64,000 nt of DNA from Salaquimonas pukyongi. Its GTDB lineage: Bacteria; Pseudomonadota; Alphaproteobacteria; Rhizobiales; Rhizobiaceae. The notes below the pieces were generated by a model. The model was not told the origin of the DNA and ran no database searches. It saw only the letters and a list, made by a program, of their open reading frames with translations. Positions 5,070 through 13,320 of the stretch are shown here, in pieces. The stretch is from NCBI RefSeq assembly GCF_001953055.1, contig NZ_CP019044.1, positions 3,265,001-3,329,000 of the forward strand. Direction: 5' to 3'. Every line of letters starts with the position of its first letter. Positions within the stretch are counted from its first letter, which is position 1. The translations under genes and the position numbers were made by a program.

Positions 5070-6305
5070 TCAGCTATGCTTGCCGATGAACTCCAGCACG
5101 ACCGGGCGGATGTTCTCATGCCAGGCCCTGCCTGAAAAGATACCGTAATGGCCGGCATCCGGTTCCAGGTGATGTGCCTTCATCGCATCGGGCAGCCCCG
5201 TGAGAACATCAAGCGCGGCAGCACATTGCCCGGGGGCGGAAATGTCGTCCCGTCCGCCTTCGACGATCTTCGTTGGAACTGAGGTGATTTTCGTCAGATC
5301 AACCTTCTTGCCGTCAATGGCAAAATCGTTTCTGGCGATTTCACGCGTCTTGAAGATGCGCTCCACGGTGGAAAGGTAAAACTCGGCCGGCATGTCCATG
5401 ACCGCCAGGTATTCGTCATAGAATGTATTATGGCGATCCAGATCGCCCGCCTCATCGCGAACCGTGCGGATGATCTGGTTGGCAAATGCCTTCGCATGCT
5501 TGTCCCAGTTCATCGCCATGAACGAGAAAAGCTGCATGCTGCCGGGATAAACCTTGCGCCCCACGCCGGGATGATTGAGGCCGACCGTTTGGATGACGGA
5601 ATGTTCGAGCTGGCCCATGGTAACCCGGCGGCCGAAGTCGGTTACCTCGGTGCGGTTGGCATCGGGATCGACCGGTCCGCCGATCAGCGTCATCGAGGCG
5701 GGCTGCGCGTCAGGTTCGTTTTCGGCAAGCCATGCGACAGCAGCCAGGGTCAGGGGGACAGGCTGGCAAACGGCGATCACGTGGGTTCTGGATCCGGCTA
5801 CCTTGAAAAACTCCACCAGATGCTTGGTAAAGTCTTCCACATCGAACTTGCCCTTTGACACGGGCACGTTGCGTGCATTGCGCCATTCGGTAATCAGTAC
5901 GTCGCAATCGGGTAGCAGGCTGACGACGGTATTGCGCAGCAGCGTGGCATAATGGCCGGACATCGGGGCGATCAAAAGCACTTTGGGACGGCTTTTGGCC
6001 GGGCGTTTGACCTTGAATTCCAGCAACCGGCCGAAGGAGAGTTCCATTACGGTTTCGACCGAAACCAGACAGTCCCTTCCGCCGCTTACAACGGAAGCAA
6101 TGCCCCAGTCCGGCTTTACGGTAAGGCGCTGGAATGCCCGCTCGCTTACTTCGCCCCAGGCGGCAAATGCCGCCGGCAATGGATTGGAAGACAGTCCGAA
6201 AACTGGATTTTTCCAGAAGGTCTTTGCCGTTGCGGCCACCCAGAGGCTGGCCAGGCGCGCCGATTCCGTGGCGTCATAGGCGGTATAGGTATACGGGTTG
6301 GCCAT
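5070..6305 (-). CDS. phaZ: Intracellular polyhydroxyalkanoate depolymerase
   Basis: A 411-residue alpha/beta-hydrolase-like enzyme expected to break down native PHA granules inside the cell. The nucleophile motif is VIAVCQPVPL with Cys at residue 180. A cysteine in a VCQP context is typical of the PhaZa1 type of intracellular depolymerase, as opposed to the serine lipase box of secreted depolymerases. The C-terminal DAGHYGIFSG carries the likely catalytic His. No signal peptide is visible, consistent with a cytoplasmic enzyme. It is transcribed away from phaC, with 157 bases between the two starts for divergent promoters. Confidence 0.94.
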   Translation of the reverse strand: MANPYTYTAYDATESARLASLWVAATAKTFWKNPVFGLSSNPLPAAFAAWGEVSERAFQRLTVKPDWGIASVVSGGRDCLVSVETVMELSFGRLLEFKVKRPAKSRPKVLLIAPMSGHYATLLRNTVVSLLPDCDVLITEWRNARNVPVSKGKFDVEDFTKHLVEFFKVAGSRTHVIAVCQPVPLTLAAVAWLAENEPDAQPASMTLIGGPVDPDANRTEVTDFGRRVTMGQLEHSVIQTVGLNHPGVGRKVYPGSMQLFSFMAMNWDKHAKAFANQIIRTVRDEAGDLDRHNTFYDEYLAVMDMPAEFYLSTVERIFKTREIARNDFAIDGKKVDLTKITSVPTKIVEGGRDDISAPGQCAAALDVLTGLPDAMKAHHLEPDAGHYGIFSGRAWHENIRPVVLEFIGKHS

Positions 6306-6462
6306 TAAATGCCCCTTTAGTTGGCTTGAAGCGGATGTGAATCAACCCTACAAACATCCGCAGGGTTGTACCCTTGGGCGGTTGCAAGGGCAAGCTATCC
6401 TTAAGTGGGTGGATAAACGGCCAGAATCAACAGCAGGCTAAAGCCTGCAACGGAAGGCGATC

Positions 6463-8244
6463 ATGGAAAAGTCTGCATACGATCCACAGGTCCTCAAGGG
6501 CAATCTGGACAAACTTGAAGACCTGACGGTTCGCCTGGTAAATGCCATCGCCAACCGGCGCGAGAGCGACCCCGCAATGCAGGGGCCCGGCTATAATCTC
6601 TATGCCAAGGCCGCGGCCGCCTATTATGCCGAGATGATGGCGCGGCCGGAAAAGATCATCGAGCAACAGGTGCAGTTCTGGCGGAAGAGCCTGGAAAATT
6701 TTTCCAACGCCCAGACGCTTCTTAATGAAGACGAGCAGAAAGAGCCTGCGGCAAAGAAGGGGCCGGGCGACCGGCGCTTCAAGAATCCTCTGTGGGCCAG
6801 CAATCCCTATTTCAATTTTGTCCGTGACCAGTATCTGCTTTCCACCGAGATGATCGACCAGACCGTTACCGGGCTGGAGGAAATCGACGACAAGGAAAAG
6901 AGGCGGGTTCAGTTTTTCGCCCGTCAGCTGGTGGATTTGTTTTCGCCGTCCAATTTTTTCGGGACCAATCCCGATGCCCTGGAAAAAGCGCTGGAAACCA
7001 ACGGCCAGTCGCTGGTTGACGGTCTTGCCAATCTGGTGCGCGATCTCGAGGCCAATGATGGTGAGCTTTCGGTCACGCTGGCCGATCCAAAGGCATTCGA
7101 AGTGGGTGGCAACATTGCGACCAGCCCGGGTGACGTTGTTTTCCGCAACCGGATGTTTGAGCTGATCCAGTATGCGCCGGCAACAAAGGAGGTCCACAAG
7201 ACCCCCCTGGTCATTTTCCCGCCCTGGATCAACAAGTTTTACATTCTCGACCTGAAGGAGAAAAACAGCTTCATCCGCTATGCGGTCTCTCAGGGCTATA
7301 CGGTATTCGTCGTATCCTGGGTCAATCCCGATGAAAATTATCGCGATGTGGGCATCGACACCTATGTCGAGGAAGGCGCCCTTGCCGCCATCAATGCAGT
7401 TCAGGACATTACCGGCAGCAAGAAGGTCAATGCCATCGGCTATTGTATCGGCGGCACCCTTCTGACGATTACCCTGGCGCTGATGGCTGCAAATGGCGAC
7501 GACAGGGTAAAAAGCGCTACTTTCTTCACCACGCTCACCGACTTCTCCGAGGCCGGCGATCTCGGTGTCTTCATTGACGAGGATTTTCTTACGGCAATCG
7601 AGACCGAGGTGGACAAGCGCGGCTTCCTCGACAGTTTTTACATGTCCAAGACATTCTCCTATTTACGGGCCAACGATCTGGTCTACGGTCCTGCGGTACG
7701 GTCCTACATGATGGGAGAAGCGCCTCCGGCCTTTGACCTCCTGTTCTGGAATGGCGATTCCACCAATCTCCCTGCCCGCATGGCGAAGGAGTATCTGCGC
7801 CACCTCTACGCTGAAAACAAGCTCATCAAGGGCGAGTTCGAAGTCAACGGCACCGTCATAGACATGTCGAAGATCGATTTGCCGATTTATGTGGTGGCAA
7901 CGGAATCCGACCACATAGCGCCGTGGAAATCCTCCTTTACGGGCCTGTCCACCACGTCGGGCGAAAAACAGATGGTGCTTTCCGAAAGCGGTCATATTGC
8001 CGGCATCGTCAACCCGCCGGAAGCCGGCAAATATGGCTATTGGCTCAATGATGAAGCCTGCACGGATCCGGACGAGTGGCACAAGGCGGCCGAACATCAT
8101 GACGGAAGCTGGTGGCCGCACTGGTCAAACTGGCTTTCTGAACGGTCCGGCAAGATGGTTGAGGCCCGCCAGCCAGGCAGCAAATCCCACCCTTCCCTGG
8201 CTCCCGCGCCGGGAACCTATGTGGTCGCCGAGCGGAAAAAGTAA
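6463..8244 (+). CDS. phaC: Class I polyhydroxyalkanoate synthase
   Basis: A 593-residue PHA synthase, the usual class I length, which polymerises (R)-3-hydroxyacyl-CoA at the granule surface. The lipase-like box GYCIGG supplies the nucleophile Cys328. Asp483 in TESDHIAP and His511 in SESGHIAG complete the expected Cys-Asp-His triad. The N-terminal domain contains the PHA-synthase motif PWINKFYILDL. No phaE or phaR-subunit partner is needed for class I, and none is present. The ATG at 6463 has a ggaagg ribosome site. A strong inverted repeat and the phasin promoter follow immediately downstream. Confidence 0.97.
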   Translation: MEKSAYDPQVLKGNLDKLEDLTVRLVNAIANRRESDPAMQGPGYNLYAKAAAAYYAEMMARPEKIIEQQVQFWRKSLENFSNAQTLLNEDEQKEPAAKKGPGDRRFKNPLWASNPYFNFVRDQYLLSTEMIDQTVTGLEEIDDKEKRRVQFFARQLVDLFSPSNFFGTNPDALEKALETNGQSLVDGLANLVRDLEANDGELSVTLADPKAFEVGGNIATSPGDVVFRNRMFELIQYAPATKEVHKTPLVIFPPWINKFYILDLKEKNSFIRYAVSQGYTVFVVSWVNPDENYRDVGIDTYVEEGALAAINAVQDITGSKKVNAIGYCIGGTLLTITLALMAANGDDRVKSATFFTTLTDFSEAGDLGVFIDEDFLTAIETEVDKRGFLDSFYMSKTFSYLRANDLVYGPAVRSYMMGEAPPAFDLLFWNGDSTNLPARMAKEYLRHLYAENKLIKGEFEVNGTVIDMSKIDLPIYVVATESDHIAPWKSSFTGLSTTSGEKQMVLSESGHIAGIVNPPEAGKYGYWLNDEACTDPDEWHKAAEHHDGSWWPHWSNWLSERSGKMVEARQPGSKSHPSLAPAPGTYVVAERKK

Positions 8245-8270
8245 TTAATTCATAGGCTTATAATTTTTTT

Positions 8271-8312
8271 GCCGCGCTGCAGCATTTTTTCCTTGAAATG
8301 CTGCAGCGCGGC
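8271..8312. promoter_or_regulatory. Perfect 17-bp inverted repeat, probable PhaR operator at the phasin promoter
   Basis: The arm gccgcgctgcagcattt (8271-8287) is repeated exactly as its reverse complement at 8296-8312, separated by 8 bases. The right arm lies across the start of the spacer of the phasin promoter. TGC-rich palindromes with CTGC and GCAG halves are the known type of target for the PHA regulator PhaR in Paracoccus and Rhodobacter. Here phaR is two genes downstream. The hairpin could also act as the phaC terminator, but it is not followed by a T run on the plus strand. Function is inferred; the symmetry is seen directly. Confidence 0.7.
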
Positions 8313-8321
8313 ATGTATATA
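8293..8321 (+). promoter_or_regulatory. Sigma70-type promoter of the phasin gene
   Basis: A -35 box TTGAAA (8293-8298), a 17-base spacer and a -10 box TATATA (8316-8321) give near-consensus spacing and sequence. This would start a transcript about 65 bases upstream of the phasin ATG. The -35 box and most of the spacer lie in the loop and right arm of the inverted repeat, so a protein bound to the repeat would block RNA polymerase. Confidence 0.72.
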
Positions 8322-8393
8322 TCTGTTGCACAAGGCGCAGAAAGCGCTGACTGATTAATCGAATTCTGACATTCGGACATAAAGGTTCCTCCC

Positions 8394-8807
8394 ATGACCA
8401 AGACCATCGACTACACCAAAACCTTCCAGGACATGTTTGCCGGCAAATTCGCTGACGTGAACGCTGTTAACGACCTGGTTCGCGACGCCGCTGAATTCGG
8501 CGCCAAATTCAACAAAATCGCTCTCGACGCAGCTGAGAAAAACGTCGAACTGTCCAACGCATGGATGAAAGACAGCCTTGGCAAATACGGCGCTTTCACC
8601 AAGGTTCAGTCCGAGCCTGCTGAATATGCAAAAGTTGCTGCTGATGTCGCTTCTGCCCAGGCGCAGGCTGCTCCTGAGCACTTCGCCAAATTTGCCGAAG
8701 TAGCAAAATCCGCGCAGATGGCAACGGTTGAGCTGGTAATGGCTGCCGGTAAAGAATTCCAGGCTGATGCCGTTAAAGCTGCCAAGTCGGCTGTAAAGGC
8801 TGCCTAA
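8394..8807 (+). CDS. Phasin (PHA granule-associated protein)
   Basis: A small (137 residues), Ala/Lys-rich, largely helical protein without Cys or Trp-rich cores, matching the phasin family that coats PHA granules and controls their size. It begins with TKTIDYTKTFQDMF and contains long amphipathic helices around residues 20-60 and 80-135, ending in KAAKSAVKAA. It sits between phaC and phaR. It has its own strong promoter and its own terminator, as expected for a very abundant protein regulated by PhaR. Codons lean toward AAA for lysine and GCT for alanine, unlike the neighbours, which fits high expression. Confidence 0.88.
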   Translation: MTKTIDYTKTFQDMFAGKFADVNAVNDLVRDAAEFGAKFNKIALDAAEKNVELSNAWMKDSLGKYGAFTKVQSEPAEYAKVAADVASAQAQAAPEHFAKFAEVAKSAQMATVELVMAAGKEFQADAVKAAKSAVKAA

Positions 8808-8864
8808 CCGGCCTTTGAAATAAGAGATTTACTTCTCCTCCCAACCGCTTTTTCGCGGTTTCTT

Positions 8865-8891
8865 GAGCGGGTCCCTGACCCGCTCTTTTTT
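8865..8891 (+). terminator. Rho-independent terminator after phasin
   Basis: The arms gagcgggtc (8865-8873) and gacccgctc (8877-8885) enclose a three-base loop and are followed directly by six T. This is a textbook intrinsic terminator closing the phasin transcript before phaR. A smaller hairpin (aaccgc/gcggtt) sits just upstream. Confidence 0.88.
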
Positions 8892-8974
8892 GTTGGAGCA
8901 GCAAATCAGCCGATTTTTTTCTGTACCAGCCAGATCAAAGGCCTATAGTTCTTAAGATTGCTTGGGAGTGCGAT

Positions 8975-9625
8975 GTGAGCAAAAGAAGCAAGCCGGACGG
9001 CGAACCAATCGTTATCAAGCGTTATGCAAGCCGGAAACTGTACGATGCTGACGCAAAGGTTTACGTCACTCTCGAGGACATAGCACGCTATATACGCGAA
9101 GGCCGGGAAGTCCAGATTATCGACAAGGGCACCGGCGAAGACCTGACCCGTCAATATCTGGTTCAGATTATCGCCGACTTCGAAAGCCAGGGCGAAAGTG
9201 CGCTGCCGCTCAATATCCTGACCGACCTCGTACGCCATTATCAGGAACAGGCAAACTCAGTCACCAGCACCTTTGCCGGGGCCATGACCCCCGCATTTCT
9301 GGGTCAGATGTTCGAAGCATACAAGGAACAGCAGGAAAAGGCGCTCAGCGAACTGGGCGAACTTGGCGGCAAGGCAATGGACCCGGAGAAGATGATGGGT
9401 ACCATGAACGATACCATGCGCGACTGGCAGGAAAAGCAGAGTGAGTTTTTCTCTCAAGCCATGGCCCAATGGGGTTTTGGCCTGCCGCAGCAAAGCCCCG
9501 CCGGCGAACGCGAAACTGAAGGCGAGTCCGGCCCCCCGCCGGAACCGGCTCAAAAGGAAGCCAAGATCAAGGCCATTGAGGAAAATCTGGAAGCGCTGCA
9601 GGAGCAGCTCAAAAAACTTCGCTAG
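8975..9625 (+). CDS. phaR: PHA synthesis repressor PhaR
   Basis: A 216-residue regulator of PHA metabolism that represses phasin genes and is released by binding nascent PHA. The N-terminal 65 residues are the PHB/PHA accumulation regulator DNA-binding domain (IKRYASRKLYDADAKVYVTL). A second PHB-accumulation domain at about residues 67-110 is followed by a Gln/Glu-rich C-terminus that is probably coiled coil. The start is GTG: the ATG four bases upstream runs straight into a TGA. The palindrome at 8271-8312 is the obvious candidate target. Confidence 0.95.
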   Translation: MSKRSKPDGEPIVIKRYASRKLYDADAKVYVTLEDIARYIREGREVQIIDKGTGEDLTRQYLVQIIADFESQGESALPLNILTDLVRHYQEQANSVTSTFAGAMTPAFLGQMFEAYKEQQEKALSELGELGGKAMDPEKMMGTMNDTMRDWQEKQSEFFSQAMAQWGFGLPQQSPAGERETEGESGPPPEPAQKEAKIKAIEENLEALQEQLKKLR

Positions 9626-9857
9626 ATGTTAAGCCTTCTGGGCTGCCCGCCTCCTTGCAGCCTGCCATATCCTCCAATTTGCCTGAGCTGCAATACTACC
9701 CGAAAATTTGATTGAGTGAAGCGGAAGGCAGGGTATGGACCCAAGCGTGCCTGCCGTGCTTTAAGCAGCAAAACCGCTGTGGCTGCCATGGGTTGCCGTA
9801 TGCGGTATTTTTGAGGCCTGTAACGCACATCGTGCACAAGCGCTATTGGAGACCGGC

Positions 9858-11300
9858 ATGCGTGAAGAACGCCAATTCTACATTAATGGCAAATGGACTG
9901 ATCCAGTCGAAGGCACGGACTTTGCGGTAATCGACCCATCAACGGAAGAAGCGTGCGCAACGATTTCGCTCGGCGGCAAGGCGGATGCTGAAGCGGCGAT
10001 TTCTGCAGCAAAAGCGACCTTTCCCAAATGGTCGCTTTCCAGCAAGCAGGAACGGCTCGATCTTCTACGCAGCATTCTGGAAGCCTATACCCGCAACAGG
10101 GATGCCATGGGCGAAGCAATCTCGCAGGAAATGGGTGCGCCCATCGATATGGCCCTGGCCGCCCAGTTCGGCGCCGGATTTGAGCACATCCACGATTTTA
10201 TCAATACGCTGGAAGCTTTCGAGTTCGAAGAGGAAAAACAGCCCGGCACGGAGAACGACCGGATCCTGCACGAGCCGGTGGGCGTCTGCGGCCTGATCAC
10301 CCCGTGGAACTGGCCAATGAACCAGATTACCCTCAAGGTGATCCCGGCTCTTGCGGCAGGCTGCACCATGGTGCTCAAGCCCTCCGAGCAATCGCCCCTT
10401 TCGGCCATTCTTTTCTCCAGAATACTGGATGAAGCGGGCGTTCCCGCCGGGGTTTACAACATGGTCAATGGCGACGGTCCTGGCGTGGGGACCGTGCTTT
10501 CAGGCCATCCCGACATTGACCTGGTTTCCTTTACCGGCTCCACCCGCGCCGGTATTGCCATTTCAAAGAACGCTGCAGACACCATCAAGCGCGTTTCCCT
10601 GGAGCTTGGCGGCAAGGGCGCCAATATCGTGTTTGCCGATGCGGACGAAAAGGCGGTCAAACGCGGCGTTCTGCATTGCTTCAACAATTCCGGTCAGTCC
10701 TGTAATGCGCCCACCCGCATGCTGGTCGAGCGTTCGCGTTATGATGAGGCTGTCGAGCAGGCCCGCGAAACAGCCGAGAAAATGACGGTGGATGTTGCTT
10801 CCAAATCTGGCCGCCACATCGGCCCGGTGGTCAATGAGGCGCAGTTCAACAAAATTCAGGGCCTGATCGAGGCAGGCATCAAGGAAGGTGCCCGGCTTGT
10901 CGCAGGCGGCATTGGCCGCCCCGAAGGCCTCAATCGTGGCTTCTTCGTCCGCCCGACCGTGTTTGCAGACTGCACCAACGACATGACCGTCATGCGTGAG
11001 GAAATATTCGGTCCGGTTCTTTCCATGATGCCGTTTGACAATGAAGAGGAAGCGATCGCCATTGCCAACGACACGCCATACGGATTGACCAATTACGTGC
11101 AGACCGGGGACGGCGCCAAGGCAAACCGTGTGGCCCGCCAGCTTCGCTCTGGCATGGTGGACATGAACGGCAAGTTCCGTTCCTCCCCGTCACCTTTTGG
11201 GGGCTACAAGCAGTCCGGCAATGGCCGTGAAGGCGGCCGCTGGGGTCTGGAGGAATTCCTCGAAATCAAGGCAGTTGGCGGCTGGGCACCCGGCAAATAG
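9858..11300 (+). CDS. NAD(P)+-dependent aldehyde dehydrogenase family protein
   Basis: A 480-residue aldehyde dehydrogenase of the classic superfamily, oxidising an aldehyde to the acid. Landmarks are TPWNWPMNQ, GFTGSTRAG-like SFTGSTRAG, the general-base Glu in LELGGKGAN, and the nucleophile Cys282 in NNSGQSCNAPTRML. The long N-terminal and C-terminal arms are intact. A TTG lies in frame at 9846, but the ATG at 9858 has ggag six bases upstream and is preferred. The substrate cannot be read from the sequence. The downstream flavin reductase is only 38 bases away and may be co-transcribed. Confidence 0.92.
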   Translation: MREERQFYINGKWTDPVEGTDFAVIDPSTEEACATISLGGKADAEAAISAAKATFPKWSLSSKQERLDLLRSILEAYTRNRDAMGEAISQEMGAPIDMALAAQFGAGFEHIHDFINTLEAFEFEEEKQPGTENDRILHEPVGVCGLITPWNWPMNQITLKVIPALAAGCTMVLKPSEQSPLSAILFSRILDEAGVPAGVYNMVNGDGPGVGTVLSGHPDIDLVSFTGSTRAGIAISKNAADTIKRVSLELGGKGANIVFADADEKAVKRGVLHCFNNSGQSCNAPTRMLVERSRYDEAVEQARETAEKMTVDVASKSGRHIGPVVNEAQFNKIQGLIEAGIKEGARLVAGGIGRPEGLNRGFFVRPTVFADCTNDMTVMREEIFGPVLSMMPFDNEEEAIAIANDTPYGLTNYVQTGDGAKANRVARQLRSGMVDMNGKFRSSPSPFGGYKQSGNGREGGRWGLEEFLEIKAVGGWAPGK

Positions 11301-11338
11301 GCCGCAGACTGTCAGGATCGCAACGGGAGCCGGAATCA

Positions 11339-11923
11339 ATGCGCAAACCTGCAATTCTTGTCTTCGCCGGTTCAATCCGGTCAGGCGCCTACAGCCAGCA
11401 GGCTGCCGATGCCTATTGGGCGCAACTGGCGGTGATGGAAGGTGAGGTAACCCGCATTACGCTGGCCGACTACCCGTTGCCGATCATGGATGAGGATCTG
11501 GAAGCGGAAAAGGGCATTCCCGAAAACGCCGTCAAACTGGCCCGCCTGTTTGACCACCACGATGCGGTTGTCATCGTAACGCCGGAATACAATGGCTCGC
11601 TGCCGCCGCTTTTGAAAAATGCCATCGACTGGGTAAGCAGGGTCTCGGCCGATGGCGAAAAACCGCTTTCACCCTACAAGGACAAGCTGGCACTGATCGG
11701 TTCTTCTTCGCCCGGTGCCATGGGCGGGTACTCCGCCCTTACCCATCTAAGACACATTCTGGTGCGCCTTGGCATGCAGGTCCTGTCGGAACAGATGGCC
11801 CTTGGCCGGGCAAAAGCCGCGTTTGACGACATGGGCCGGCTCTCCGGTGAACGGGAAGCCCGCATGCTGGAAAATGCCTGCCGTTCGCTGATCGAAAAAG
11901 CTACCTTGCTCAGCCGGGTATAA
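11339..11923 (+). CDS. NAD(P)H-dependent FMN reductase family protein
   Basis: A 194-residue flavodoxin-fold reductase of the NADPH-dependent FMN reductase family (ArsH/ChrR/azoreductase group). The phosphate-binding loop [15 protein letters not shown] is at the N-terminus, and the family motif [17 protein letters not shown] lies near residues 82-98. It also has [10 protein letters not shown]. It would pass electrons from NAD(P)H through FMN to quinones or other acceptors; the true acceptor is unknown. It lies between an aldehyde dehydrogenase and pyrF, each within about 40 bases, suggesting a small operon. Confidence 0.88.
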
Positions 11924-11943
11924 ACCGTACGAAAGGCCGCTTC

Positions 11944-12651
11944 ATGCCGGTATCGGATAGTCTTCGCTCCAGACTGATCGTGGCGCTGGATGTGCCGGAT
12001 GTTGCACAGGCTCAACAGGTGGTAAGCGCGCTTGATGGCGAGGTTCACTTCTTCAAGATCGGGTATCAGCTTGTCTTTGCCGGCGGGCTTGAACTTGCCC
12101 GTGAATTGAAGCGTGAAGGCTTCAGGGTCTTTCTGGACATGAAACTTCTCGACATCGACAACACCGTCGAAAAGGGCGTTGCCAACATCGCCGCCATGGG
12201 TTTCGACATGCTTACGCTGCATGCCTATCCCAAGACCATGCGCGCAGCGGTCAGGGCAGCACAGGGTTCGGACTTGTGCCTGTTGGGCGTGACAGTCCTG
12301 ACTTCGATGGACGACGATGATCTTACCGCCGCCGGATACGGTACTTCCGCCAAAGAACTGGTAATGACCCGTGCGAAGGACGCTGCCGCTGCTGGCATGG
12401 GCGGCGTCGTTGCCTCGGCGCTTGAAGCCCGGGCCATCCGCCGGGAAATCGGCCCGGATATGGCGCTGGTAACCCCCGGAATTCGCCCCGCAGGCGCCGA
12501 GGCCGGGGACCAGAAACGGGTCATGACGCCCGCCAGGGCGATTGCCGCAGGCGCCTCGCATCTGGTGGTGGGCCGCCCGATTGTTGCTGCTGCAGACCGC
12601 AAGCAGGCGGCAAGGAACATACTTCAGGAAATGGCAGAAGCTGCTGCCTGA
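11944..12651 (+). CDS. pyrF: Orotidine 5'-phosphate decarboxylase
   Basis: A TIM-barrel enzyme of 235 residues that converts OMP to UMP in the last step of pyrimidine synthesis. It shows the N-terminal [10 protein letters not shown] and the catalytic cluster [13 protein letters not shown], which holds the Lys and Asp residues that drive decarboxylation. It also has the phosphate-binding [11 protein letters not shown] and the C-terminal [11 protein letters not shown]. It begins 20 bases after the flavin reductase and is probably in the same transcript. Confidence 0.97.
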
Positions 12652-12837
12652 TCTTGGTACATCACCATAACATTCTGATTTAGAACAGTTTTATTTGAAT
12701 TGCGAAATCGTAATCTGTCGGCAATCTGTATCTTCCTTGAAAGCGGGTGTTGAAATTCTTACGTAACAGGAGCGGCGGATTGTCCACCGTGTCCGGCGGA
12801 AGGGTTCCGTCATCCATTGTTGAGAGGGCCAACACAT

Positions 12838-13320
12838 ATGAACACCAGCCAATCAAGCAGTGCCCCCTATCGGGGTCATCACAACGCCTGGATACGTCCG
12901 GCATGGACCCCGATCACGATCGCCATGATGATCGTCGGTTTCATGATTTTCTGGCCGCTCGGCCTCGCCATGCTGGCCTATATTCTGTGGGGCGACCGGC
13001 TTGAAGAATTCAAATCCGGCGTAAACCGCACCACGGACGGTTTTGCACGGAACTGGTCCTGCGGCCGCGGTCCCCGTTCCAGCACCGGCAATGTCGCTTT
13101 TGACGACTGGCGCAATGCTGAAATCGAGCGTCTGCGTGAGGAGCGCCGCAAGCTGGAAGAAATGCGTGCCGAGTTCGAGGCCCATCTTCGTGAGTTGCGC
13201 CGCGCCAAGGACCAGGATGAATTCGACGCCTTCATGTCTGCCTACAAGCGCAAGACCGGCAAAAAGGAAGGTGACGGCAAAGCGTCGAAATCGCGCCGCA
13301 AATCGGTTCCCGATAGCTGA
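12838..13320 (+). CDS. DUF2852 membrane protein
   Basis: A 160-residue protein of the DUF2852 family, common in Rhizobiales and of unknown function. One membrane segment (about residues 27-46, TIAMMIVGFMIFWPLGLAML) is followed by the family motif AYILWGDRLEEF. Then comes a linker and a charged coiled coil (about residues 86-135, rich in Glu, Arg and Lys) with a basic tail. A TTG start is possible 21 bases upstream, but the ATG at 12838 matches the family start better. A strong terminator follows, so it is probably a single-gene unit. Confidence 0.85.
   Translation: MNTSQSSSAPYRGHHNAWIRPAWTPITIAMMIVGFMIFWPLGLAMLAYILWGDRLEEFKSGVNRTTDGFARNWSCGRGPRSSTGNVAFDDWRNAEIERLREERRKLEEMRAEFEAHLRELRRAKDQDEFDAFMSAYKRKTGKKEGDGKASKSRRKSVPDS

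Follow-up and report, generated by a model that had tools for sequence, protein, structure and literature searches.

An exact inverted repeat on the promoter of a phasin gene raises two questions, i.e., whether its arms are the halves of one operator, two separate operators or the stem of a terminator, and why they should be perfect mirror copies of each other. Within the window (the whole 64 kb stretch of DNA analysed here), the repeat spans 8270–8313 and consists of a left arm (TGCCGCGCTGCAGCATTT, 8270–8287) and its exact reverse complement (8296–8313), each of 18 nt, around an 8-nt loop. The original prediction of exact 17-base arms (8271–8287 and 8296–8312) is borne out with one further outer base, and the CTGCAG cores that it named are found in both arms. 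When the 64 kb were scanned exhaustively, only one other perfect inverted repeat of at least 12 nt (loops of up to 30 nt) was revealed, of 12 nt, while a search with one arm, allowing up to three mismatches, retrieved the two arms as sole matches (0.20 expected by shuffling). Folded as RNA, the palindrome reaches –39.8 kcal/mol (z of –6.6).

The pha locus and the phasin promoter

The gene order at the locus is phaZ, phaC, phaP, phaR, which we take to be the order of the Rhodobacter sphaeroides pha locus as well. The PHB depolymerase gene phaZ (minus strand, 5070–6305; TIGR01849, 499 bits) is divergent from the class I PHA synthase gene phaC (plus strand, 6463–8244; TIGR01838, 746 bits), which stops 25 nt short of the left arm. 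Downstream of the palindrome lie the phasin gene phaP (plus strand, 8394–8807, 137 aa; Pfam Phasin_2, E of 7e-5) and the repressor gene phaR (plus strand, 8975–9625, 216 aa; PHB_acc_N, E of 7e-24), the latter being the gene right after the phasin gene and not two genes downstream as had been stated. PhaP scores just under the curated Phasin_2 cut-off as a protein and above it in a genome scan with frame neighbours (25.5 bits), and PhaR scores just under the TIGR01848 cut-off (107.5 vs. 109.45 bits). A profile search of the genome (one contig of 3,357,577 bases) yielded one PhaR gene (PHB_acc_N), i.e., phaR itself, and one Phasin_2 gene. A terminator-like hairpin with a U-tract is situated at 8865–8885, between phaP and phaR.

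The predicted TTGAAA-N17-TATATA promoter could be read directly from the sequence, with a putative –35 box TTGAAA (plus strand, 8293–8298), a 17-nt spacer and a putative –10 box TATATA (plus strand, 8316–8321), which puts the palindrome at the –35/–10 region of the predicted phasin promoter. The pattern CTTGNAATGC stands beside the right arm's counterpart in 125 of 198 Rhodobacteraceae genomes, and [TC]AT.T occupies the place of the –10 box in 171 of 195 promoters of relatives. A simple promoter scan did not report this promoter because it demands a –10 box ending in T.

Two predicted PhaR sites around the –35 box

Both arms match the PhaR motif of Sinorhizobium meliloti, WNWDDNYGCRNYGCRNHHWNW (PMC12542648), exactly, i.e., at all 21 positions of a YGCRNYGCR core with AT-rich arms. 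The left site is the 21-mer TTTTGCCGCGCTGCAGCATTT (8267–8287; core CGCGCTGCA, 8273–8281), and the right site is the 21-mer AAATGCTGCAGCGCGGCATGT (8296–8316), the core of which (TGCAGCGCG, 8302–8310) is the reverse complement of the left core and falls within the –35/–10 spacer. The two sites are 29 bp apart from centre to centre, one on each side of the TTGAAA box, and the only other occurrence of the 21-mer motif in the 64 kb (26136) is inside a long coding gene.

Since the full 21-mer is present in each arm, each arm holds a whole PhaR site and no half-site. It had been proposed that the 17-bp arms are half-sites built on CTGC/GCAG and together form a single palindromic operator, as their perfection and their symmetry about the –35 box might suggest. 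Each arm by itself is nevertheless a complete, near-palindromic predicted site with the core CGC-GCT-GCA, and in S. meliloti a single site suffices for PhaR binding (PMC12542648). Moreover, the spacing in relatives ranges from 26 to 30 bp and the centres are non-complementary in 164 of 228 pairs (see below), a variability that rigid half-sites of one operator would not allow. The single long operator was therefore rejected as very improbable.

That the palindrome merely ends the phaC transcript, independently of PhaR, was rejected as well and appears barely conceivable. Its position 25 nt past the phaC stop codon would suit such a role, but the stem is followed by TGTATATATC, which lacks the U-tract of an intrinsic terminator, each arm carries the full PhaR motif, and the promoter boxes around the arms are conserved.

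The layout with two sites flanking the –35 box is known from S. meliloti phaP1 and phaP2 and from Bradyrhizobium diazoefficiens phaP1, for which footprint, gel-shift and mutation data are described (PMC12542648, PMC6201568). As in the S. meliloti promoters, which are controlled by PhaR/AniA, two 21-mers surround the –35 box here, and the site starts are 28 bp apart at S. meliloti phaP2 vs. 29 bp in the window (PMC12542648). The S. meliloti pairs are not mirror copies, however, with ACT/AAC and ATT/AGT as centres in our own reading of Table 3 of that paper, whereas the window carries an exact 18-bp inverted repeat. In B. diazoefficiens, the two footprinted sites straddle the –35 box in the same way as the predicted sites do here (PMC6201568).

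Two other consensus sequences fit less exactly. The Bradyrhizobium 12-mer TGCRNYGCASMA (PMC6201568) differs from the sites here (CGCGCTGCAGCA) by one letter per arm (11 of 12 matched, C for T at position 1), and a strict scan of the window gave no match; the B. diazoefficiens target table likewise contains sites that begin with C (PMC6201568). The R. sphaeroides consensus CTGCNNNGCAG (Chou and Yang 2010, as cited in PMC12542648) shares the GC-N3-GC core on a phasin promoter but mismatches both arms once, with CCGC for CTGC at one end, and its strict matches in the window are elsewhere (14553, 16744, and 28205). We treated CTGCNNNGCAG as a narrower species consensus that does not define the family.

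At the genome scale, the stringent 15-mer TGCYGCRNYGCRGCA occurs seven times vs. none for a reversed-pattern control. Two of these occurrences lie on the phasin promoter and form the only double site found with this motif. The remaining five are located before the pyruvate phosphate dikinase gene ppdK (766549–766563, i.e., L019 1501–1515, 55–69 nt upstream of the likely gene start), before the citrate synthase gene gltA (1582847–1582861, i.e., L020 1501–1515, 114–128 nt upstream of the gene), before a gene for a DUF2157 membrane protein, before a gene that matches CHAP weakly, and inside a biotin carboxylase gene. Both ppdK and gltA are among the S. meliloti genes listed with PhaR sites (PMC12542648). 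In a motif scan of the window, the PhaR core was absent from 8311 to 13195 and therefore from 8808–8974, giving no sign of autoregulation at the promoter of phaR itself. Nor was a core detected in the phaZ–phaC intergenic region (6306–6462); in R. sphaeroides, repression of phaZ by PhaR has been reported (cited in PMC6201568).

With the motif in both arms, a single and adjacent PhaR gene, the ppdK and gltA sites, the recurrence in 125 of 198 Rhodobacteraceae genomes, and the footprints and gel shifts from rhizobia, the palindrome is in all likelihood a pair of PhaR operator sites on the phasin promoter. The original prediction of a PhaR operator at this place therefore stands, except for its parsing as one operator, and that the palindrome is the main PhaR switch is plausible. 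By analogy with close homologues, PhaR bound to both sites at a distance of some 29 bp would occupy the –35 box and the spacer and thereby exclude RNA polymerase, and accumulation of PHB would draw PhaR to the granules and allow expression of phaP.

Distribution of the two-site module among relatives

Relatives of the phasin were found in six of 61 searched genomes, all from the genus of the window; the other relatives are in records of Paracoccus and Rhodobacterales, and none was found in a viral collection. A second phasin match in one of the genomes (G003) looks like a Rhodobacterales contaminant contig. The combination of CTTGNAATGC and a PhaR core is present in six of seven genomes of the window's genus and in the above-mentioned 125 of 198 Rhodobacteraceae genomes, a family name that was assigned to the latter from their phasin relatives. 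A stricter form, CTTGAAATGCYGCRNYGCRGCA, is present in two of the order's 297 genomes and in three of the 385 from the class (Rhodobacteraceae account for two of these three), and the contrast is a rough one because the searches use different patterns.

In 123 of 137 places, the core is preceded by a second one, 26–30 bp upstream (28 bp in 44, 29 bp in 37, 26 bp in 16, 30 bp in 15, and 27 bp in 11; one place counted twice), and 116 of these 123 are followed by a phasin ORF. The other 14 have no second core, and five of them have a phasin ORF. The two-site phasin promoter module is thus widespread in Rhodobacteraceae, which is new here, and the operator in the window is a further case of a known regulatory layout.

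The stretch with phaC, phaP, and phaR (6463–9625) has a rhodobacterial look in a genome that seems to belong to the order Hyphomicrobiales. Relatives of the phasin are confined to the genus of the window, Paracoccus, and Rhodobacterales, and among plasmid sequences PhaC and PhaR are best matched by those of Pseudorhodobacter. It is possible that the pha cluster was horizontally transferred together with its operator.

Concerted change of the two sites and its possible causes

In order to compare the arms across relatives, the variable letters of each site were taken to be its three central letters (RNY), and expectations were obtained by dealing the right sites out anew. In a first sample (122 promoters, after dropping one duplicate from G809), the two centres were reverse complements of each other in 33 promoters vs. 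9.9 expected (z of 7.9), and directly identical in seven vs. 7.9. A second sample (110 promoters from 106 further genomes of other genera, restricted to left sites starting with TGC and thus leaving out those starting with CGC) yielded 32 inverted centres vs. 8.9 expected (z of 8.4) and five direct identities vs. 7.4, so that two samples of different genera agree on the inverted excess. Pooled without duplicates, 64 of 228 pairs are inverted vs. 18.3 expected (z of 11.6), while direct identity is not raised (11 vs. 15.1). Among the 16 possible relations between centres, the perfect inverted one stands out with a z of 11.7 and the next reaches 2.5 (pool before duplicate removal), and 13 of the 16 possible inverted centre types were seen.

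Relatedness of the promoters was rejected as the source of this excess, which persists when promoters are thinned by phasin identity, i.e., at 80% (145 clusters, 39–40 inverted vs. about 13.6), at 70% (62 clusters, 17 vs. 5.9), and at 60%, where only 14 clusters are left (3–4 vs. 0.7–1.0). Furthermore, 84 disjoint sister pairs contain 47 compensated positions vs. 19.8. The mirror relation also extends beyond the sites: perfect in-register arms of at least 13 bp are present in 37 of 196 promoters vs. 8.9 expected (largest of 300 shuffles, 19), and arms of at least 15 bp in 20 of 196 vs. 3.2. The longest such arm is one of 18 bp in L098, which the palindrome in the window ties.

Within the genus of the window, mirror centres occur in the window itself and in G001, G004, and G005, in three different sequences, next to non-mirror centres in G006 and both G003 copies. 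Over the 44-bp palindrome, the window and G001 differ at five positions, four of which are two compensatory pairs. No excess was seen in one other genus (62 genomes, 52 with the element), in which the 30 loci used gave five mirror centres vs. 4.1 expected and no clear arm conversion; all of these promoters have the GA inner flank, i.e., short arms. Across promoters with the full GCATT inner flank, and thus longer inner pairing, 14 of 19 are inverted vs. 51 of 214 of the others, and for GC vs. GA flank alone the difference is not significant (42 of 127 vs. 23 of 105, p = 0.08).

In related bacteria, the sequences thus suggest that the two PhaR sites tend to change in concert as mirror copies of each other, which is new, the type of switch itself being known. 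The perfect arms in the window would be explained by this concerted change in many lineages. As a whole, paired PhaR sites around the –35 box, the arms of which have been homogenised in concert, are very probably the best explanation of the palindrome, which judging by its sequence would then be a double PhaR operator with an already known layout and its symmetry one case of a family-wide tendency. Of more general bearing than the operator is the concerted change of the two repressor sites. Within the open-licence literature, we found nothing on covarying PhaR sites or on concerted or template-switched operators.

As to the cause, an excess limited to inverted copies speaks against simple matching of site strength and against shared base composition; the latter was rejected since it should raise direct identity too. 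The excess points to either copying from arm to arm, i.e., template switching, or a selected hairpin, which the sequence tests do not cleanly separate. Selection might also act on the DNA itself, if a PhaR dimer of dimers with its two-fold axis at –35, or a cruciform, worked best with mirror sites. The centring of the sites on the –35 box, their near-constant spacing, and the sigmoid binding curve of Ralstonia eutropha PhaR on a phaP promoter, which is read as cooperative in PMC3570403, would be in line with this. Matching of affinity should nevertheless favour direct copies as much as inverted ones, and a fixed optimum would not yield as many paired centres as the 13 of 16 types observed, making selection at the DNA level quite unlikely.

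The main rival to template switching is that the arms, while serving as operators in the DNA, are under additional selection to form a stem at the 3′ end of the phaC mRNA (as a terminator or 3′ stabiliser), and that this causes the covariation. The very stable fold of the palindrome speaks for it, as does the position of the phaC stop codon (median of 26 nt before the left core), with phaC upstream in 186 of 196 promoters. On the other hand, a U-tract is missing (at least five T in the eight nucleotides after the stem in only 16 of 195), and a terminator scan was empty at the palindrome. Moreover, where two of the three centre positions are paired, the third is a G-U-capable mismatch in 36 cases (vs. 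about 63 expected) and an A-C mismatch in 19 (vs. about 41), counts of low power that were made conditional because plain wobble counts are uninformative at two-letter positions, where the 2 × 2 table forces equal deviations. Finally, two of the ten promoters without an upstream phaC are still inverted, again with low power, vs. 53 of 186 with phaC; an earlier notion that mirror pairs are restricted to promoters behind phaC (0 of 11 without the phaC tail motif) was dropped after this better phaC search. Altogether, selection for such a hairpin seems possible but rather unlikely.

Template switching is known to homogenise inverted repeats, with multi-base compensatory changes that keep the arms perfect (PMC8604942, PMC8794818). 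The cases described in these papers concern yeast coding DNA and RNA genes, whereas here it would act in a bacterial promoter, on a pair of transcription-factor sites. Being nearly palindromic, the double site might invite such switching during DNA replication and so have its inverted arms homogenised. The corresponding traces, i.e., an excess of mirror arms (64 of 228 vs. 18.3) and multi-base compensatory differences (window vs. G001), are both present, and the inverted pattern by itself would also be compatible with hairpin selection. Given that a U-tract is missing, that G-U pairs are not clearly tolerated, and that pairing goes on into sequence without obvious use to PhaR or a terminator, we prefer template switching as the mutational cause of the mirror arms, with roughly even confidence. 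The wider proposal that, in Rhodobacteraceae and the window's genus, template switching has repeatedly re-copied one operator in reverse complement onto the other, and the pair is thereby shaped by mutation rather than by selection on the single sites alone, is more tentative and falls a little short of an even chance. Where paired sites covary, RNA structure or selection is the usual reading, and simple copying between operators may explain the case here. The many natural mirror and non-mirror pairs in otherwise equal promoters make the copying idea testable.

In L098, the 18-bp mirror arms reach the –10 region and the left flank carries a reverse copy of that region, an outward extension that is hard to explain by PhaR binding. 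Some genomes carry tandem phasin promoters: in L174, L177, and L179 (G809, G848, and G1028, respectively), the first promoter is mirror and the second, which is not directly behind phaC, is non-mirror, while in G1052 (L180) the second is mirror and the first non-mirror.
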